Of a stretch of 64,000 bases of DNA, positions 5,382 through 57,700 are shown one piece after another. The DNA is from Paralichthys olivaceus (Eukaryota; Chordata; Actinopteri; Pleuronectiformes; Paralichthyidae), in the NCBI RefSeq assembly GCF_024713975.1, contig NC_091095.1, positions 3,818,001 to 3,882,000 of the forward strand, in the 5' to 3' direction. A program made the position numbers and the translations under genes. Position 1 is the first letter of the stretch. The number at the start of each line of letters is the position of its first letter. The notes below the pieces were generated by a model that saw nothing but the letters and a program-made list of their open reading frames with translations, was not told the DNA's origin and did not search any database.

Positions 5382-5467
5382 ACACACACACACACCCACC
5401 CACGCGCACACACACACACCCACGCGCACACACACACACCCACGCGCGCGCACACACACACACACAC
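5382..5467. repeat. (CA)n tract with CACGCG interruptions
   Basis: Alternating CA runs are broken by three CCCACGCGC-type blocks and sit in the irf4 3' UTR or flank. The Cys-Val-rich open frame over it is an artefact of the repeat. Confidence 0.85.
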
Positions 5468-5579
5468 GCATGCACACAGATCTCTAGGGGTCAAACAGTA
5501 ACTGTCACTAAATGTCCATCATCTCATGTGTCACACTGTCCAGGTTCGTCCTCTTGTCTCAGAGATTTTCCGTAGACGT

Positions 5580-8500
5580 TCACTCCTGCAGGCTGCTGCT
5601 GCTGCTGCTGCTGTGGTGGTGATGGTGTGTGACGACCCTCTGGAAGTCCTCCGAGGCGTTGAAGTGGTCCGTGACCCCCGGGAGGTCGTAGCTGCGGTAG
5701 TAGTGGCCGCCCGTCTGCTGGGCGTAGTACAGGAGCTGCCTGGCGAACAGTGGCTCCACCTGCAGGACAAAAAGCTGACTGGTCAGTGAATTAGCTCCAA
5801 TTTTTATTTTATCAAAACTCATATATGAAATCTTAAAGGCGCAATGTGTACGTTTGGCCTCTAGGGGTTTAGTTGTTGAATAAAAAGGGGATTTCTCTGG
5901 GTTTGAACATTGTTGGAAACAGTTCGGACGACAAGGTGATGTCGTTTCTAGACATTTAAATGATGAATTGTTTGATTTCATATCGTTAAAAAGTGAAAGT
6001 GGTTTTATAAGTTGGTTTGTAAAGTGAAGAATGGCTCTTGAAAGTGTCAACAAGAGCAGCAGTGCAAAGATTTAAATTCACTGGCAACTCAAACTCAACT
6101 CAAAGGTTCATTTGGTTCCTATTTCCAGACCTTTCAGCTGTGAATCATTGTTATAATGAATGTTTATCTTCTTCATTTTCACTCTAAATCCCTGAAGAAG
6201 AAGTGTCAGATGTGGAGAAGAAGTAATACTTGTGTTGATTCATCGATAGTTTCATCACCTGGACACTGAGCGTCCGTCTTTGTCTCTGCGGGTCCAGACA
6301 CTCATCTCCGAAACTCAGCAGCACCTGGAGTCGAGGCAGCGGTCGACCGTGGAGCCCGAAACTCTGGAGCTCTGGTCGAGAGGAAACAGACGAGAGTTTG
6401 ACATGTGAAGTAAAACTGAACATTTCTGATTCAAATGATTTCAGAAGAAATTTATTTGAAGTGCGTGACCTTTGGGGTGATTCGTCTGGAAAGTCCATGT
6501 CACATAATGGATGCAAATTATTTGTCAGACTTACAGCTGGAGCCGTAGCAGCGAGTGGGAGGAGACGATGTGACTGTGACAACATGAATTTCTAACTCTT
6601 CTATCGGAGCTGTTCAGTGCTGCTGGAGGTTATTTCTATTTAGTCCTGGTTTTCAATCATCTTAAGAGTTTTGCAGTAAATGAAAAATTTACCCAAATAA
6701 ACAAACACAGATTTGACTTTTTATGACTTTAAATCGTGGCCGCTCACATCTCTTAATTAATTAAAAAGAGTTTCTATTTGTTCTGTTTCCAGACTCACTT
6801 TACTCTACTTTTAGACTCACACTTTAATAAACTAGAACAAAGACATTTCCGTGTTTCTCATGCTGCAGCTCTAGAACTCGACTCAGTGCAGCCCAACAGT
6901 TCCCTTATGAAACCACATCTAAGTTCACTAGATCCAGATTTCTATTTGCACCAAATTCAAAATATCAAGTCCTCTAAACATTTTACTTGTCAAGATCCAA
7001 GAAATATTCTCTGAGAAATCAAACTAGAAAACGCTTCTCAATCTCAAACCAAAGTTTAACAGGTTGTTCCCTGGTTTGTTCCACATCCTCCCACCAAATA
7101 TCAAAAACATCCTGAAAGAATCTTCAGCCTTTAGATTTATCAAAAAACAGTTTCCACTGTTATTTACTTGCTGTGTATGTGCTAAAGATCAGAGGAAAAC
7201 TCGATTCCTGACGTTTTGTTTTTAGCTTCAATGAGGATGTTTATCAAATAGAAGCGATGTCACATAATGACAGGAGACGTGTGAAACGCCTTCACTCTGA
7301 TAAATCAAAAACACTTTCATGAATCAGTTGTTTATGATTTATCAAATCTCAAAAGTTCAGCTGCTGACTGTTGATCAGAAGAAGTTCACTTTGTGTAAAT
7401 GCAGACTTTTACACTTTTTATCACTTTTCTAATTATTTATTCGATGTCCTCCTCAGCTGCGGCTCCGTCCTGTCTCACCTGTGAGGTAATCCTGGCTGTG
7501 CAGGAGTTTACAGGTGACGTCTCTCTCCAGCTTGTTGAGCTTGTCTCCGTACGGGGACGGTCCTCCCTGCCAGTACACTCGGCTCTGACACAGCCTGCAG
7601 GCGTAGAGTCCGTCCGCACCCATCCACAATAACACCCCCCTCTCCAGGGTGGAGGGGGGGTTCGGGGAACACTCCTCCGCCCTCCTCTGGACCGACAGGT
7701 GGTCCACGGGCAGGGGGACCACATCGGGGCCTCCGGGCAGCAGACTGAGCTTCTCCTCTGGGGAGCAGGGGGTGATGTGGCAGCCCTTTGGACTGGAGGT
7801 GGTCACCTCCCTCACCAGATTGTCCCGCAAATACACGGACACGTGCAGACGGAAATCTGGACGGAGGAGAAGAGGAAGAGGTATTTAACATTTCACATTT
7901 ACATTCTGATGCTTTCATCTGTGGATGTTTTGTTTCTCATTTGTGGATTTATCTGTAATGTCTCACATTTCACTGGACTTCAAACATGTCATATCATCAA
8001 TTCATAGATTTTAAGGAAATAAACTTTAAAAAATAGATATAATCCTGAGTGCACACCTTTATGCAGAGTTTATTCAATAAGACAAAAGTTTTCATACCCA
8101 CAAACATAAACACTGATGTTTCGTCTCAATCTTCTCAGATCTTTGACTAAATCTTTGGTTTTGCTTCATAGAAATTCCATCTAATCCTCAGATAAGTAAA
8201 TCATCCAGACCCACAATCCTCCTCCCCCTGGTTTCATAGCCTTCAGAGAGAGACACAGTGAAATGAGAGTTGTTCTGTACCTGACAGAGCCTCAGCTGAT
8301 CTGATGCCTGCGTCCAGTGTGAAGGGCGGGGCCTGACTGTCAGCTGGACCGTAGGAGTAAATGGACGCTCTGAGCTGGTATCCTGTCGGAGGCACAGATT
8401 TCAAATAATGCTCAAACTGCCGTGGATGCTAACGTCAGTGTAAAGTGTGAGAATATGTGGCAGCGAACCGTTCTCCATGGACGGGCCCTGCCAGGACAGG

Positions 8501-11110
8501 CTGCGGGGGGGGCAGGGACACTGAGAGTAGGGCAGCTCCGGCAGGGGGGCCTGCTCCGGACAGAAATCTCTCCAGCTGCCGTCTGGTGTCGTCATGTACT
8601 GAGGCATCTACACACAGACACACACACACACATCATGTACTGAGGCATCTACACACAGACACACACACACACATCATGTACTGAGGCATCTACACACAGA
8701 TACTACTTACACTGTATAAAATAAATCGAACACAATCTGGCAGGTGAATTTGAAATTATCCAAATTTCGCTCAAAAAGTTAAAAACTCAGACATGAAACG
8801 TAAAAAACTTCAAAATCCTAAAAGTGTTTTTTTTTAAATTTCAGCTTTTAAAACCAGCATCTGCAGAAGTTTGGGGATTTCGAACCAATCAATAAAACAA
8901 AATCAATAATTATTGCAGCATAATTTTCCTCGATAGAAACAACACTAGACTGTGAATGAAGATGGACGACAGGTCTCCTCCCACTATCCAGAAATGAACC
9001 CGAAATATCCCGGAGGTGATACACACACTCGACCAATCGGGAGTCAGTCTCAGCTGTCAATCATGACGTCTCAGCCCGTTTTCATATCATTAAATACCAA
9101 ATTACAAACTTATCAGAAACATTTGAGCGTCTGTTTCCTAAAATAACACAAACCATCTTCTCTACGTCTACTTCGATTTACGGTGTGTGATTGTTTGGTC
9201 CATGTCCGTAATGCTAACATGGAGGAGGCTAGGGTTAGGACCTACACTGCAGCCAGCCACCAGGGGGCGATTTAGTTGGTTTGGCTTCACTTTCAGGGGG
9301 CTGTCTGTTTTTTTTACAGTATGAGTGAAATATATAATTGTTCTACCTCAGAAGAGTTTCACTCTCTGAGTGACGTGTTTCATGATAATTATAATATGAG
9401 GTTTTTTTTTCTTCAAACAAGTTTTGGTCACGTTATTTAATTTGAACCTTGTTTGTTACTTTTATACACTTTGGAAACTCAGTTTTAAAAAGTACAATTT
9501 AAATAAAGTGTATTATTATTATTATATCACCAGGCTCTAATTGTGATGCAGTTAATGAGCCTGTGAATCCTCATCACTCATCCTTCATCCTTCATCCTTC
9601 ATCCTCATCACTCATCCTCATCACTCATCCTTCATCCTCATCACTCATCCTCTCACCTGAGTCTGCAGAGCTGGGTAGGGGTGAACCTGGAAGCTCATGG
9701 GACTCACAGGACTGTCCTCCTGTCGAGGTCCTGCGTGTCAGACAGACAAAAGTTCACTTCAGAAATCAGACACCACTCATGTGGTGATGACAGCTCCTGA
9801 CCTTAAACTGGTGGTTTAGACGTTTGACTGTGAAAGGCTTATTAGACCCATGAGAGGTGCGTGACCTTTATCAGAGAGTTTCCAACTTTGATAAAATCAA
9901 ACAGTTCATCACGAATACAAATACTCAGAGTCAGGTGCATCATCGTGAAGTCTAGACAGCAGGTTGTTGGTGGCACTCACGTTTCTTGGCTCCCTCCGGG
10001 ATGATGCGGTAAACCTTGTAGGGGTCGGAGATGTCCAGCTGGCTCCTCTCCACCAGCTCCACGAAGTCGTTGCTCTTGTTGAGGGCGCAGCGCAGACGCG
10101 TCTTCCAGGTCGGCGGGTCCGGTTTGTCGATCCCCTCCCGAAACTTGCCCTTAAACAGCGCCCAGGCCTGCGGACAAGACCCCGGGAACAGGGTTAGACA
10201 TGCAACGGCCTCTGCCTGCAGAGAGCACCGGGTCAGGGCACAGCCAGATGTTAGCCTGCAGATGTGCGCCTCGCGTTTCTATGGATGAAGGTCCAATAGA
10301 GCTGCAGGTTTTTATATCAACTGAGAATCTGCAATAAAGTTTTTTTAAATTTTTTTTTAAATTTGAATGTGTGAAATGTTTGCAGCCTCTCACATGTGGA
10401 GATCTCATGTTTTCTGATGATCGTTTTAGGCCGAAACTAAATATAATACACACGTTTCAAATCAACGTGCTTTACATAAAATATGAATCATGATCAAATT
10501 GTAAAAGCAACATCAGATAACACACAAAAAAGAAGCATTTAAAAAGAAACTGCTGCATGGATTGGCACGGTGAATAAAATAAGAAATAAAAGGTGTGTGA
10601 CACATTAATCATTTTCGGACAAATTCATTTTCTCTGGCTGTTTTAAAGCGTTTAAGTTTTAAAAACGATATATTTTCTGGCACGAATCGATAAGTTACAG
10701 CCGCTGCACACTCCATGCGTAAAGTTCTTCACGTTGGTTTAACACATAAACGTATTAAATGCAAAAACACAGGATGAGTGACTGATGAACTCCATGTGAA
10801 AAGCAGATTTCTCATTTTCTCCATTTACATCGCGTTTAATCATTTTCTCGTTTTCCACTGCTGTTAGTCTACCAGTCACGTGTCTTTACGCACGAGGACG
10901 CGTGGCTCGTACCTTGAAAAGCGCGGCATCCTCGTCCCGGTTGTAGTCCTGTTTCCCGGCGTGTTTCCACGGGATCCTGAAGATGCTCTTCTCGTCGTTC
11001 TCCCACACCAGCCCCGGATACTTCCCACAGTCCACCTGCTCGATGAGCCACTGGCGCAGCTTCCCGTTCCCGCCGCTCCCGGAGCCTCCGTAATCCAGCT
11101 CAGGGTTCAT
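5580..11110 (-). CDS. irf4: interferon regulatory factor 4, complete, 8 coding exons
   Basis: Coding exons in transcript order are 11110-10913, 10167-9981, 9730-9657, 8607-8469, 8382-8281, 7856-7479, 6371-6259 and 5759-5580. They sum to 1371 nt, giving 456 aa (human IRF4 is about 451). The IRF DNA-binding domain occupies about residues 15-125 and shows the five family tryptophans at 21, 36, 48, 68 and 87 (LRQWL, GLVWEN, RIPWKH, AWALFK, PTWKTR). The IRF-association domain runs from about residue 234 (FRLHVSVYLRD) through LERGVLLWMGADGLYACRL and LPRLQVLLSFGDE to VEPLFARQLLYYAQQ. IRF4 is a nuclear factor that acts on ISRE and ETS/AP-1 composite sites in lymphoid and pigment cells. The start is the ATG that opens MNPELDYG, just before the conserved domain; an upstream in-frame ATG sits in the leader. 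The protein ends in an unusual His5-Ser7 run. I did not decide between the teleost a and b paralogues. Confidence 0.96.
5833..5960 (+). mobile_element. possible TTAA-flanked short element (irf4 last intron)
   Basis: It begins TTAAAGGCGCAATGTGTACG, close to the end of element B (TTAAAGGTCCAGTGTGTAAG), then has GGCCTCTAGGGGTTTAG. The right end could not be fixed. It may be a related but distinct family. Confidence 0.35.
8593..8700. repeat. 41-bp tandem repeat covering the irf4 exon 5 acceptor
   Basis: The block CATGTACTGAGGCATCTACA plus a following CA run repeats at 8593, 8634 and 8675, an exact 41-base period, with the third copy partial. On the minus strand each unit contains TGTGTAG followed by ATGCCTCAGTACATG, which is the intron end and exon 5 start of irf4. 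There are therefore three near-identical candidate acceptors at exon boundaries 8607, 8648 and 8689. Only 8607 joins in frame. Confidence 0.9.
8943..9324 (+). mobile_element. dispersed inverted-repeat element A, copy 1 (irf4 intron)
   Basis: The left end reads TAGACTGTGAATGAAGATGG and the right end finishes TTTTTACAGTATG after GTTTGGCTTCACTTTCAGGG. The interior carries GCTAACATGGAGGAGGCTAG and CAGCCAGCCACCAGGGGGCG. The same landmarks recur in the same order at 29441-29766 and 31466-31793. It lacks any coding capacity, so it fits a nonautonomous DNA transposon (MITE-like). Confidence 0.65.
9570..9655. repeat. CATCCTT / CATCCTCATCACT minisatellite
   Basis: Short imperfect tandem units of ATCCTTC and ATCCTCATCACTC run up to the splice donor of irf4 exon 4, which begins at 9657. 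On the minus strand the repeat starts immediately inside the intron. Confidence 0.8.
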
Positions 11111-38679: not shown

Positions 38680-41600
38680 TTCCAACAGTGATAGTGAATC
38701 TCACAGTGGGTGAGCTCTTCACCAAGTATTAAATGTAAGTATGTATCTCAAGGTGTAGCAATATTTTCATGAATACAATATATTCAATATTTTCCAGAAG
38801 AGCTTGGACATCCATGATGTCAAGATGGGATTAAAAACTGTCTTCGGCGCTAAAATGGAAAACGGATGAACAGGAGGAAAAGTCCATTCCAACAATTCCC
38901 AGGGGACGACCCAGAGGTAGATGCCAAATTACAAACAAATAAACCCATGCACAGAACTGGTGCACCTACCCAAATACACACACACGCACACACATTAACA
39001 CATTAACAGAGCAAACTGAAGCTGGAGTGGAGTTTATTATGGGCTGCGTGTTGCAGCGAGATAACCAGCAGATGAGAGATTTTAAATGAGCAAGTGAGGA
39101 TGTGATTGCTGGTGGTGTTACAATGGTACAGAGAGAGAGAAAGAGGGAGGGAGGGAGAGAGGGAGCAGGATTGGATGAATGGAGGAGAGGAGAGGAGAGA
39201 AAATGAAAATGGTCAGAGAGCTGCTGGATTTAAAAATAGAAATTCAGCTCTGCGTTTGCAGTGACAGAGGCTGAAATGAGGGGAACAGGCAGAGAGAGGA
39301 TTTCTGGAGGGAGATGGAGGAAAAAATACAGATGGAACAGTGCAACCACAGCAAATACACATGCACACGTACTGTACAACCATCCATCATGAACAATATG
39401 TGCACGCTACACGTTTTCTTCCTGCTGCAGCCATTGAGCACACGGCTGTTTGACAAACTCCGCAGTAATGTGCCTCCGTTGTTTTTACACATTACAGTGC
39501 AGTGAAATGTTTTCTATTATTGGCTCTGTGCCTCCACCTGTTTAATTTCAGATGAAACTGTGACTCTGGTGTTAAATTGCTGCTTTTCAGCTGTAAATTA
39601 AAATATAATAGGTTTAAACCTCTGGTCTCTTTTACACTCAGCAACAAGAGTCGAATCAACCAATGAGTGTGTTTATGATCGGAAGAGGAAGGTTAATCAC
39701 ATGACCTGATGATAATTTGTTTTGCCGGCTGAACAGCAACCTGAACGAAGTGAATCCGGCTAAAGTACAGGCCTGGAAAACAAATGTATAATCTCAAAGA
39801 ATTTGAAACCAGATACGGGAATATTCCAGTTTCAATATCAGAATATTGGTGTGCATGTAAACACGTCTGCTGTGCGAACCCCCCTAGAGTGGATGTGAAC
39901 TTAAAAACTGAAGGTCAGCACTTCAACCGCATCATTATTCTTTGATTTCAGATCCAAAGCACTGGAGCACTGCGCCAACACAACAAAACAAAGCGTCACT
40001 GCCAAAATACTGAGCGTCCGTGCTGTCTCTGTCCTGCAGCATGGAGACCAGACACTGTTGTACCTCTCTTGGCAAAACACGTATTGAAAAAATTCACACC
40101 CAGTGTCTGCTCTCCATCTGTTATAGTGGAATATTGAAGTCTCATTGCTCCGCAGCTCAAGTGTCAGTTCATCATGTATTCAGACTTCTAGGATGTTTAT
40201 TGGAAGCTTCCAATATCCTCATGATATTTTACTGTTAATGGGACGACGGCGTCTGTTCTCCGCTGTCGGTCATAGTGTGAGTCGTCCTGCAGCAGCACCG
40301 TTCCTCCCACTGAACTGCATCCACACCTCACACAACCGACTCACACCTCATGCAGACACCTACTGTTCTCTCACACAAACACACACACACACAGTTACTC
40401 ATCCCATCATTGTCAGCACTGACAAAAGAAATATATATGGCTCCCATTAGAAGTATTTGTTTTGGGCAAATTGGCCGTAATAACAGAGGGACATGATCAA
40501 AGTGAGAGAGTGTGTGACAACGATGAGAGAACAGACCCAGATGGAGAGGAGGAAATATAATCATGTGAGGAACGTAAAAAGATAACAAACAAAAAAAAAC
40601 AGGTTTCAGGCAAAATTGGAGAAAACAAAACCTGATAAATCTCAATTGAGATTTAAATGTATTTATGTCATGTTGAATTTTTTTAAATTACTAAGCAAAT
40701 CAGATTGTCTTACACGTTATGCTGTATCGGACATGATGAAACAGACAAGGACTAAAATATTCTCACTATTCTAGAATCTAGAACATCAGCATATAAACAT
40801 AACTGTGGAATCTTAGCTGTGTTAAGAACTTCCCATTGTCTCCTGCAGCTATCTTTGTTTCTGTGATGGTAACCGACGTCAGTAAGACATTTTGCGATTA
40901 GCTGTAATGTTTTATTCTTTGTAACGACGCCGGTGATCAATGAAATTCGTTTTATTCTCATCTTATTGTCTTCGTCGTCCTTAAAACAAGACTTTGAGAA
41001 TGTTCCTCAAACATCACAGATTAAAGTCAGCTCTCACGAGTGTCCTGGCAGACGGCTCGGAGGCATGGGCTTACATTTAGTTAGTTTTTAGAAGCGGTTC
41101 GATAGAGACTTATCTGGGACCCCCCGCTGAGAGAGGACAAAACCCGCCCCATCACCAGAGCTCAGAGTCGGCCCCGGCTTCCAGCAAAATGTATGACTAA
41201 TCCCTGACTGGCATAAAAGAGAGAAGAGGCCTGGACAGGGTGAGGAGGAGGGGGGGTCGAGCAGGGGAAGGAATGCTTGTGGGGGGTGACACCAATTTAC
41301 AAACCTTAAGATTGAGAGCTTTAGTTTTTCTCTGTAATCACAGTATCCACTGACTAAAGTCCAAATATCACAGCCAGGATATTTAATGAGTTAAACAACA
41401 ATTAGCTCAGTATTCACAACTACAACTTATTTTAACTATTTTATTGGTGTTCTGTTTTTCAGAATACCTTAATATGAGAACAGCTTTATTGGCATTTGGT
41501 AGTTTTAAATACTCTATATGTGACCATATATATAAATTGGGTTTTGTCCCATTTCCCCACATCTGGAATATCTTCCTCTCCATCCCGCTGATTACATTTA

Positions 41601-44600
41601 ATAAACACAAAAGAGAAAAAGTCAAGGGAAATACAGGAGCGTAGAAGCAGAAAGAGAAAAGCTGACGAGGAGATGACATCGTGTACTTACTGAGCACGTA
41701 GAGGGAGAGAGCGAGGCCCGCCAAGCAGAAACCCTCAAAGAAGCGCAAGGTGCTGAACATGGTGACGTTCACAGAGAAGGCAACACTCAGACCAAACACC
41801 AGCATGAAAAGCACCGAGAGGATCAACACCGGGTGTCGACCAAACCTTAGAGACAGAGGCACAGATGGAGAGAGAGAAAGAAAGACGTAGAGAAGTGTTT
41901 AGAAACTGTCACAGACTGAAAGAAGAAGCTTTTGATGTGCAGTCGAGTGAAAGGGATCATTCCTCTCATTGTTTCCTTCAGACTGTGCCCACTTCCTGGT
42001 TTATGGGGGGGGGGGTCAGTAGACCAGTGGGTCAGGTCAGAGCTGAGGCGTCACTGCCCTGCACATTTCTTTACATAGTTTCCATGGTTACTTATCTCAA
42101 ACACAATGTGGGGACTATTTTTCCCACGATGCAGCTCAGGTGGCTCACACGCTCCACAATGAATTCAAGGAACAGCAGCGAGGGTTAAAGAGTCAATTCA
42201 CCAAATGACAAAAGATAATTTATCACTTTGCCCTGCAGATAGTTTCAGTCTTAATTCACTTTAAACTGAGATTTTTGACGGATGAATGATATTTTTCTTT
42301 AGTTTAAATAATTTGAAAATAATCCTCTGTTTACTTTTGAAAACCCACAGGCTGAAAAAATTCTGAATAAACTGTCTGTAATAAAACCAAAGACAGTAAC
42401 AGCGACCATTGTTTATTAAATGGAGGGACAGGGACATTTCTTCATTTAAATTTTAGCCATGAGGCTCCGTGGACGTCAACATTGTCCTGTAGGGTCAGTG
42501 GATTAAATACTTATGTCAGATATTCATAGGGTGAATCCTAACGGCTCCTCTGTCCATATCCTGACATTTAAACTGTTCAAAGCTCCGACATCTTATGAAA
42601 TACTTCTGATATTTGAGTAATAACTTTATCGTTTGCTCTTTCTTTTCTCTTCCAGATGTGATTGAGTGTCCTGTATGTTTTCAGCCTGTCGGATCTTCTG
42701 ACTGCTTGTGTTTCTCTGCAAGATCTCTGCAACGGATTCAGTGAGTACATGACGCTGGAATAACAAATAGTAAAAATGTTGGATTCGTAGGCTGCAAGTC
42801 GTATAAATCCGCATAACTTTGCCTCAAACTTGTCTTTTAAAACAGATCATTTTGACCAAAAGTTAAGAAAAGAATTATCTTCCATTCAGAGTGGAGGGTT
42901 TTTAATTTCTTCATGCTCGTCTTTGCCAAAAGATAACGGGAAAATGTCCCGACTCTGCCAGACTGAAGATGAAATATTAGTTTCATTATACTCTGCGTGG
43001 TTTGTCTGTTTCTGGTTCAGTCTACGCGTTAAACTAAGCTGTGTATTTCCATTGCAAGTTTAAAAGGTCTTTAAAGTTTTAAAGTTAAGTAGTTTATAGC
43101 TGTAAACACCCTGATTAAATAGGACGGCACTTTACTTAATGTCTATGGTTATACTGTGGATCATTTATTAGCTTTTTATTTGTAAAAGTAGCTTCGGGCT
43201 TTCATTCTTTGATTCTCATCCATTCCGGTAATACACTGGCCCCTGTTTGTTTCAAGTATGAGTTGGAAAGTTGGACAGTTCTTCCATGTTGCCCCTTTAA
43301 GGATGAGACATTAAAACACTTAAGAGAGACACCAAACAGAAACGAAGGAGGCAGCGTACCAGTCAGCCATGACACCCATCACTAGATAGCCAAATATGGA
43401 GCCCACCAGCAGAGAGAACTTGGCGATGTGCACCTTCCAGGCCGAGTCACAAACCAGGTTCCACTGAAACAGAGAAAAAGACAGAAGAACATCAGTCAAC
43501 TTTACAACTTAACAAGGAGAAATAACAGCAACATTAGAAGGGAAGTGAAAAATGAAGCCGTCGGATTTTTATCTGATATCTTGTCATCTGTCCAACTCGT
43601 TCAGCTCTGTGACTCACTGTGTTTATAATTCATGAAGGCTGAAGAGTGCAAACACGCTGCTGACACTTTTGAAATATTCAAATGTCCATGTTGAAACACA
43701 CGCATGTGCATGTGTCAGAGAGAGAGAGAGAGAGCCTGCACGTGTGTGTGCCTACAATATGAGAAATCGATAGTTTTCCACTTTTTCCGTGAAGGTCATG
43801 GGTCACCACGCACACACACACACACACACAAACACGCACACACACACACAGCTGCAGCTCTCAGCATCTGAAGCCAAGGACACGTGGAAGCACAATTTGT
43901 ACAATGTTTGTTTGTGAACCTGAAGTAAGCAGAGCGACTCAGCCGAGCGTGAAAATAGCGTTGGTGTTTTAAAATGATTTACAGAGCTCCCCGCTGAGAG
44001 AGGGGGGGGCTATTAGCACCAGTGTTAACTTAACGAACATGACACAAGTACAGAGCTGGGGGAACATTTTAAATCATTTTGTAATCCTATCATGATACTG
44101 TGTTCATGCCATGTTATTGTCTTTGCTCTCATTAGATTCTCTGCGAATTCCAATTGAAGACGAGCAGAAAATAAACGTGTTTTTCTGCATCTTCACTGCT
44201 GGACCCTGAGTTTAATGAACAGTTCACATCGATGGACGATCTGATTCTGCTGTGATCCAGAGGTGGATTTGTAGCTGCACCACTGGATGTAGGTCAATGT
44301 GACAAACTCACAATGTCTTCATCAAAGTTTTTGTCATTTACCTTCCTTCAGTCAGCCACTGAGTCAGATTTCAGCATCACCACGTTTAATTTCACGTTAA
44401 AATCAGATGTTTCGACGTGAGTCGCCCGTCGGCAGACGTGAGACATCAGCATCAACCTCAGGAGGGAGAGGGGTCTTTGATCCCCTTTGATATTGAGTGA
44501 TTTCTGCATCACATGTGGTGATGTATAAATAAATAAGTAGACTTATATGTATAATATATATTAATATCGTGGTAGTGTTGTATCTACCAGTCCTGACACA

Positions 44601-54514: not shown

Positions 54515-54734
54515 GCTCCAGCTGATTTAGGAGGAGAACGTGGGGAGTGGTTTTTTGGCACAGACAGAGAGGTGTGGTCTCCAGCCTCCAAAACCGATCC
54601 GCCCCCCGCCGCAGCTCGCAGTCCGGCTCAGAGGGACCGAGGCACCAGGTGGAGAGACACACAGGAACCCGTCCTGCAGCGCCTCTCCTCCGCCTGCTCA
54701 CATCCACAGAGTCGCTGCCACCTCCACCGTCACG

Positions 54735-57700
54735 ATGAGTCATTACGGGTCCCAGCAGGGGCTCAGCATGAACCGCAGGGCCGGCTCCAAGAGCGACCTG
54801 TCCGGCCCGGGGACCTACAGTTACGCACGGAGCGAGGTGGTGCACGGAGGCGGTAATGGATACGACCCTTACATGGACGGATACAAAAGCCTTTCCTACT
54901 CGAAGACCACTAAAGCTGTCAGCGGGGGCGGCATGACGAGCGCGACCATGGGCGGTAGGGGAAGCGGCATGATGAGCGGCATGGGAGGCGGCATGATGAG
55001 CTGCACGGCAGGCGGCGTGATGAGCGGCATGGGAGGCGGCATGATGAGCGGCACGATGAGCGGCGTGGGAGGCGGCATGGTGTGCGGAATGAGGTATGAA
55101 TTCATTTTGTGAGACTTTTCTTTGTGCTTTCTTTTCTTCCACCTGTCGCTCTCACCCGTGCTGCAGGAGGAGTCACGTCACTGTGAGCAGCTGCTTGATA
55201 TGAAATATTTATCACGGACTTGTGTTTCTGTCCTGCAAACCCTGAGTCAAACCACCACGACACAAAGTTCTCAGCATTTGCATTCTAAACATTTAATTCA
55301 CCAAACCAATGCACGAGGGTGTTTGCAGGGAGGTCTGCAGGTTTTTTATTTTTTTATTTCTGCAGATTGCTCCAAGTAACTGTTTGATTGTTTGAGAGTG
55401 TTTCCTATTGTGCATTCATAATGTGTTTATTAAAGGCGGCACCACATCACCTTACCCCTGAATTACGCAACGGATTATTCGCCGTGATAATGAAACAGTG
55501 CTGCTTTGTAATTAATGCCCTAATGACTTTCATCTCGAGAATCATAAATCAGGTTGTTCTCTGCACAACAGCTCCTCTGTCTGATTTACAGCTCACATTC
55601 AGCTGCTGCAGCTCCACACCCACTCTTTATTCACTTCCAACAACAATCAGCACAGATTCTTAAATGTGACTGTGGTACTGAGGGGAGAGAGAGAGAAACT
55701 CCATCCAGGGTTGTTTGACATTAAAATAAATCATTTTGATCCAGGTGAGAAAAGAGAACGATAGAAGAGGAGGCAGATAAGTTCTTGGATCCAGTAGAAA
55801 CTTGTTTAGAGAAAAAGTCGACTCGTTGCTGAGGAGTTTCTGTTATTTTGCATCTATATGAAGCTGGATTGATAAATCGACAGGACCGATACAGTTGTTA
55901 GTGTTAAACAACATTCTCATCATCCTCTCATTGTGACCACAATATGTTTGATGCAAAATAAATAAGTTTATGGATGTTTTTACCCATTTTCCATTGATGT
56001 GTTTTGCATTAAAATCCCTGCATATCCACTTATCACTATCTATTAATTCTCAAATACTGAAAACCAGAGCAGGTTCATACTGTATGTACCAACTTTACTG
56101 TTCTATTAACTTTTTCAAGTGCAAGATGCCATAAATTATTGTAAACCAGGGCCAAATGCAGATACTAAAATAAACTACATTTTATTCCTGGATGTCAAAC
56201 AAAGCTTTTGCACATGAATCCCACAATACAACTCAAAATAAAAGCTCATTTGGACTTTTATAAATGACAGATAAACTCCTTGTTCTCATCCAGGGGTCAT
56301 GTAACCTAAATATTTTGTGGCAGGATCACAAGAAAAGTCATGTTTTCAGGCCAGCTGAAAATATTCACAGACAGAAACTGATCCCATCGGTTTGTTTTAC
56401 AGTGAAAAAGGTGATTGGTGATGATTCATGATGGTGATGAGTTTACTCTGCTGCCCCCTACAGTGGCTCCAACCTCAGTGCCATCCACCAGAGGGCCATG
56501 AACCTGCAGGTCCAGTGCCAGGAGTACCTGAAGAATGCCGAATACGCCCTTCAGTCTGTGAGTCAAGAACAATCCTGTAGCAACTTAAAAGCTCGTTCAG
56601 GTGGTTTTTATTTCACGATAAAGTTGTAAACAGCTGTGCGGCTTCTCCTCTGGTGCAGGAACCATGACCAGGACGTGGAGTGGTTCAGTGAAAGTGTGTG
56701 TGTGTGTGTGAGAATGAGAACATGTCACCAAAACCAGGCTGCTGATAAAATAATTTTGTTTATTTCTCTCTTGAATCTGAAACGTCCCAGAGCAGCATTT
56801 CAACTGTCAGTGATTGATTCATCGTGTCAGAGCGAGTTCTGCACAGATTGAAGTCGCAGCACACACAGAAACCTCCTTGGCTTCGTGTTGAGCAACATCT
56901 CGTGCAAATTATTTATCTCTGGTTTTATTCTTGGCAGAAGTGGGCGTGTGATTTATCGGCCTGTTGACTTGTAACGCTTAGATTTGACCTGATCTCCTCG
57001 CAACTGTGTGACTCTAGTTAATTGAAATGTGTGAAATTCTGAGGAGCGCCTTCATCTCATCCCTCTGACAGACATGGACTCATCAGGTTTCACGTCTTTG
57101 TCATGGAGTTTCTTATTTCTTTGAAAAAGTAAAAGCACTGCATTTGCTTAACTAAGCAAAGATAAGTTTCCCGACTGCACAAGGAAAAATGTCAACCATG
57201 CGTTTTTCACTTCTTCAATTTTAATTGCGTGGGAGAAAGTAAAACAAAAACTTGGAAGCAGTCAGTCAGTCTTCTTTATCGACTTTGAACTGAGCTGATG
57301 GACAAACAGTTCTATGAAATTGGATAAATGCCATCAACAGTGTGCAGGAATTTCTTATAAAACTTCTCGATATACTATAGACTGAAAACCAGATGTGCAC
57401 TTTGCTTTTCTCTCTCTCTCTCTCTCTGCACAGCAGTTTATGTGCAACTCTTTCTGTTGCTTTGGTTTGTGAAAAATGTCCTTTGATTATTTCAACATTT
57501 TCAATACAGGGACAAATAAAGAATCTATCTGTCAAGATGCAGGTTAATTCCTCTATTTTCTTAATTTTCCTTCACACGCTGTGTTTCGGTCCTGCAGGGC
57601 AACGCTCCGGGCGATGCAGAGGGATACATGATGATGGCCAAAGAGACGATCGAGCAGCTGAAGACCTGTGCGATGGACCTGAGACAAATGGGACAACCGA

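Follow-up and report, generated by a model that had tools for sequence, protein, structure and literature searches.

A 41-bp unit, repeated 2.66 times with no mismatch (8592–8700, minus strand), lies across the acceptor between intron 4 and exon 5 of irf4 in Paralichthys olivaceus. The duplicated segment spans the intron–exon boundary and copies the acceptor with it, leaving several intact acceptors for one exon: an identical 27-base stretch with its TAG is present three times. We favour, with some confidence, the reading that a young minisatellite makes productive and nonproductive acceptors compete here, that it is tolerated rather than selected as a switch, and that the acceptor adjoining the exon body (exon start 8607) is used often enough alongside a real nonproductive fraction. 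Positions are those of the window, the whole 64,000-nucleotide stretch of contig NC_091095.1 that was analysed; the features under discussion are collected in Table 1.

The repeat array and its gene

An earlier note on this DNA had assigned the gene to irf4, and both domains of the protein bear this out. In the 456-aa spliced model Pfam identifies an IRF DNA-binding domain (PF00605, 2.5e-41) as well as an IRF-association domain (PF10401, 2e-47), and the top solved structures in the PDB are IRF4 for each (7o56 for the DNA-binding domain, 1.4e-75; 5bvi for the association domain, 1.9e-52). A frame that is open via 8607, together with both domains, fits a working gene. The label ‘exon 5’ presumes a noncoding exon 1, which we take over from human IRF4; the array adjoins the fourth coding exon. 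The intron that follows exon 5 is only 86 nt long. Scans of the protein against two viral and prokaryotic collections, which are uninformative on fish, gave 2 pattern matches in viral_contigs and 27 in genome_contigs, none of them confirmed.

Table 1. Coordinates of irf4, its repeat array and the candidate splicing signals around exon 5
Feature	Position	Strand	Description
irf4 coding region	5580..11110	-	8 coding exons; spliced model of 456 aa
irf4 coding exons	10913-11110, 9981-10167, 9657-9730, 8469-8607, 8281-8382, 7479-7856, 6259-6371, 5580-5759	-	
irf4 exon 5 body	8469..8607	-	139 nt, phase 0 to phase 1; ends at weak donor ACG/GTTCGC
Exon 5 start via weak in-exon CAG (8599-8600)	8590..8598	-	9 nt shorter, in frame, drops MPQ, 453 aa
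Repeat copy 1, adjoining exon body	8592..8632	-	First 16 bases of exon 5 (8592-8607), acceptor AG 8608-8609, 25 intron bases
Repeat copy 2, middle	8633..8673	-	41 of 41 bases equal to copy 1; acceptor AG 8649-8650 (+41 nt, frameshift)
Repeat copy 3, partial, first in transcript	8674..8700	-	27 bases; acceptor AG 8690-8691 (+82 nt, frameshift)
(TG)7 filler between copies 1 and 2	8619..8632	-	In the transcript, directly upstream of the shared 11-base intron end, for acceptor 8607
(TG)7 filler between copies 2 and 3	8660..8673	-	Upstream of acceptor 8648; none upstream of acceptor 8689
Candidate branch-point A (ATGAT), copy junction	8633	-	26 nt from G of acceptor 8607
Candidate branch-point A (ATGAT), copy junction	8674	-	26 nt from G of acceptor 8648
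Candidate branch-point A (TTTAT)	8717	-	28 nt from G of acceptor 8689; three AGs between, 6, 12 and 15 nt from the A
Upstream competitor CAG 8712-8713 with T-rich tract	8712..8722	-	Exon start 8711; top matrix score of nine candidates; stop two codons on

The triplication of the acceptor by a 41-bp tandem repeat, proposed in the same note, is confirmed by TRF (8592–8700, period 41, 2.7 copies, 100% matches, score 218) and by alignment of the copies, which start at 8592, 8633 and 8674 and leave 8607, 8648 and 8689 as possible starts of exon 5. The third copy is identical over its 27 bases. All three copies share 27 bp, the last 11 bases of the intron (TCTGTGTGTAG) followed by the first 16 of the exon (ATGCCTCAGTACATGA, both in transcript sense). 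The exon part of the unit, previously put at about 16 bases, is exactly 16 (8592–8607); of the extent given before, 8593 to 8700, the end stands and the start moves to 8592. The description of the acceptors as near-identical is right for these 11 intron and 16 exon bases and fails further upstream, where the copy earliest in the transcript differs. That copy is preceded by ...TTATACAGTGTAAGTAGTA without filler; a filler of 14 nt, which reads (TG)7 in transcript sense, is found between copies only, and the downstream pair of acceptors, 8648 and 8607, therefore has a UG-rich tract that the first acceptor, 8689, lacks. From 8701 onward the sequence does not extend the CA run. The confinement of the filler to the spaces between copies, and the end of the CA run after copy 3, suggest that a duplication with filler came first and that the entire unit was copied afterwards.

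The array is exact and is not a product of chance. At lag 41 it matches itself exactly over 68 bases, against a longest run of 12 at periods 20–60 in 200 dinucleotide shuffles of 8301–8900. Searched with up to three mismatches, the 27-mer has three matches in the window, all exact and all within the array, where 100 shuffles give an expectation of 0. When the window is scanned for exact runs of at least 27 at periods 20–80, with low-complexity units removed by a distinct-4-mer cut-off, six rows are left, and the array at 8592–8700 has the longest run. Head-to-tail units of at least about 10 bp are the form of a minisatellite, which the array fits (41 bp, 2.7 copies, 100% matches).

Other repeats and reading frames occur in the window. 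The C terminus of Irf4 is a His5-Ser7 run (VVTHHHHHSSSSSSSLQE; 5580–5642), derived from a trinucleotide-like repeat in the last exon, and directly downstream of the stop codon lies a CA-rich array with CCCACGCG insertions (5382–5478), probably in the 3′ UTR. The plus strand of 1–1162 is the tail of a gene, putatively exoc2 from its position beside irf4, with last coding exons that read ...LLEELLNKFKSSMQLQLTCFQPSSVQPVKR. An array with periods of 12, 24, 36 and 48 (54927–55092) lies inside a putative open frame of 193 aa (54531–55112) that is rich in Met, Gly and Ser (MMSGMGGGMMSG...) and that we would guess to be a desmoplakin-like gene. A minus-strand open frame (41407–41898) matches the Major Facilitator Superfamily below threshold (PF07690, 23 bits where the cut-off is 33.4) and is perhaps an exon of an SLC22-type transporter. 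Four of the six stretches of the window scanned with Pfam had no match.

Frames, stops and predicted products

From acceptor 8607 the frame is open to the end of the 456-aa protein. Acceptors 8648 (+41) and 8689 (+82) lead to one identical product of 171 aa, ending ...MPQYMMCVCVSVCRCLST, because in both cases the shifted frame ends at the TGA contained in the ACATGA of the next copy. Pfam finds the DNA-binding domain alone in this product, so the earlier claim that either upstream acceptor shifts the frame and costs the IRF-association domain holds. The stop lies 126 or 167 nt ahead of the next junction and 719 or 760 nt ahead of the last. Under the usual 50-nt rule for NMD, transcripts spliced via 8648 or 8689 are expected to be NMD targets; the 171-aa product, should it escape decay, could compete for DNA sites.

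Only two of the ten AG-defined starts from 8598 to 8736 (8607 and 8598) give 456 or 453 aa, and the other eight give 153–171 aa. An in-frame extension to 8736 (+129, a multiple of three) meets a stop and yields 162 aa. Skipping of exon 5 is not an escape route, because the loss of 139 nt also breaks the frame.

Proposed competition between the acceptors

Exon 5 is weakly marked at both ends. With an approximate 3′ splice-site matrix of the Shapiro–Senapathy type, which is not a trained predictor, its acceptor is the weakest of seven in irf4: 8607 and 8648 each score 3.53 and 8689 scores 3.07, against 6.54–13.19 for the other six acceptors of the gene. The sites equivalent to in-exon 8598, at 8639 and 8680, score 1.01. 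Two AGs upstream of the array outscore it on the same matrix (8711, 5.55; 8736, 4.54), and the matrix therefore cannot pick the true site; the CAG at 8712–8713 that defines the first of these precedes the first repeat acceptor by 22 nt. The donor of exon 5, ACG/GTTCGC (8459–8477), is likewise the weakest of seven, with 5 of 9 consensus matches compared with 6–8 in the others. Because acceptor and donor are both weak, leaky recognition of exon 5 is plausible.

It is plausible, too, that each copy has a weak branch point of its own, judged by a simple consensus count that is not a trained predictor and that lists 15 candidates between 8592 and 8800. Two studies describe the AG that first follows the branch point as preferred, and AGs within about 12–15 nt of the branch point as open to bypass (PMC1431707, PMC7317903), and the latter reports that linear scanning fails for nearly half of the AG-creating variants studied (PMC7317903). 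Under these rules, a branch point and an AG in every copy leave no clear winner among the acceptors. The earlier note had offered, as one of two alternatives, reliable choice of the copy nearest the exon body; that this copy is the natural default is a view that these sources do not sustain. Under the first-AG preference an upstream AG should win, except where the branch point in use lies within the repeat (PMC1431707, PMC7317903), and a human out-of-frame acceptor duplication kept the duplicated intron part in the mRNA (PMC11839443). Default use of the copy nearest the exon body is possible, but with the branch point at 8717 it is not the outcome to be expected from a first-AG preference.

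We envisage the following course. A 41-bp minisatellite would have arisen recently across the boundary of intron 4 and exon 5 when 27 bp (11 from the intron end and 16 from the exon) were copied with a 14-nt (TG)7 filler; judging by the anatomy, the 41-bp unit may then have been copied once more via slippage or unequal exchange. The order of the duplication events is a guess. An intact TAG acceptor is present in every copy, and every copy junction forms a weak candidate branch-point A, 26 nt ahead of the AG that follows; 8689, 8648 and 8607 would therefore compete. Use of 8607 would give Irf4, whereas use of an upstream copy would add 41 or 82 nt and lead to the same product with a DNA-binding domain only, with NMD to be expected. 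The outcome should be a mixture, in which 8607 is chosen often enough for a working gene and a real fraction of transcripts is nonproductive. Copy number would be expected to vary between individuals, with the array tolerated and not selected as a switch.

The main rival, to which we give appreciably less weight and which we regard as unlikely, is a silent repeat: through exon definition and exon-body enhancers, 8607 would be the sole acceptor used, and the upstream copies would be dead sequence. The three acceptors have the same 27 bases, so the one next to the exon body could win by context; a branch-point-like A lies 26 nt before the AG at 8608, and irf4 is otherwise intact. Exonic enhancers, if strong in the exon body, could indeed make 8607 dominant and leave no nonproductive fraction. 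However, the upstream copies have an identical core and stand nearer to the candidate branch point at 8717, the preference for the first AG is documented (PMC1431707, PMC7317903), and in the human BRCA1 acceptor duplication the duplicated intron part was seen in cDNA (PMC11839443). RNA structure hiding the upstream acceptors is not claimed: the minus strand of 8560–8760 folds at −55.6 kcal/mol (z = −0.94), a stability equalled or exceeded by 31 of 200 shuffles.

We think it improbable that the array is an error of assembly or sequencing and that the true genome has one copy or some other number. The letter-perfect copies would fit such an error; against it stand the clean filler in the unit, the partial copy that closes the array, and a length of about 109 bases, which one read easily covers. 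With short repeats, moreover, the usual assembly error is collapse and not expansion.

A further rival is that the array is a regulated poison-acceptor switch, in which UG-binding factors of the TDP-43 type, acting on the two (UG)7 blocks, shift the balance between 8607 and nonproductive use, and repeat number tunes the level of Irf4. We hold this to be very unlikely. An uninterrupted (UG)7 precedes both 8648 and 8607, whereas before 8689 there is only (UG)3. In CFTR exon 9 a T run follows the polymorphic TG repeat; that layout is not matched in irf4, where no T run stands between UG repeat and AG and the shared intron end is TCTGTGTGTAG. The likeness to CFTR exon 9 lies in a UG repeat of at least six units directly upstream of a weak acceptor: high-affinity binding by TDP-43 needs at least six UG repeats, and such repeats let it silence that exon (PMC3985631). 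At least six repeats are found at 8648 and 8607 and not at 8689; here, unlike in CFTR, the UG run belongs to a larger unit whose duplication has multiplied the AG as well. The window has numerous CA/TG runs (many TRF rows), and two TG runs are accordingly weak evidence.

Known parallels and biological meaning

Tandem duplication across an intron–exon boundary is a kind of event already known, from a potato RdRp gene (PMC4974935) and from human BRCA1 (PMC11839443). In the potato gene PGSC0003DMG402000361 an intron was gained through tandem duplication (PMC4974935). There, as in irf4, the duplication spans the boundary, so the acceptor is doubled together with some of its tract and the exon start; the exon piece of the upstream copy may become intron. 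In potato a donor GTAAG in that piece yields a real new intron, supported by 106 RNA-Seq reads, and ten bases differ between the copies (PMC4974935). In irf4, by contrast, three identical copies are spaced at 41 bp, and eight GT positions, most of them of the form TGT/GTGTGT, would give a candidate new intron of 53–74 nt ending at 8608; microexons of 21 and 27 nt would keep the frame. It seems hardly more than conceivable that irf4 is midway through the gain of an intron or poison acceptor. On that account each copy would have its own branch point, UG tract and AG, repeat number would set the nonproductive share, and splicing first to 8689 and then to 8607, with a GT of the (TG) filler as donor, would add a 21-nt microexon in frame (MPQYMMC) and excise a nascent intron of 61 nt.

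The BRCA1 duplication, across intron 9 and exon 10, comprises 2,012 bp in two copies and comes from one patient; it is out of frame, and the cDNA retained the duplicated intron part and reached a premature stop (PMC11839443). The irf4 array differs in being 41 bp, in three copies, in a reference-type sequence. A third parallel is the NAGNAG acceptor, and human IRF4 has a NAGNAG choice of one residue (Gln), possibly at the same boundary. NAGNAG acceptors likewise set competing AGs at one exon start, possibly here at the same boundary of the same gene, but their AGs are 3 nt apart and keep the frame; those of the array are 41 and 82 nt apart and break it, and the irf4 acceptors do not belong to that class. 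A literature search for irf4 with NAGNAG found no paper, and searches on alternative splicing of irf4 in teleosts and on IRF4 splice variants gave none on this acceptor among the matches listed.

The array is more probably an accident of DNA copying than a designed switch. If the upstream acceptors are unused, it would be a harmless repeat in an awkward place. If the reading as nascent intron or poison acceptor were true, irf4 would carry a dial, variable in copy number, on a dose-sensitive regulator of lymphocytes. If the upstream acceptors are used, the locus would be a natural experiment with three identical-core acceptors at 41-nt spacing, two of them in the same local context, that asks directly what guides the choice made by the spliceosome: order, branch point or exon context. 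In that case a minisatellite would be able to lower the output of a dose-sensitive immune regulator while leaving its code untouched.
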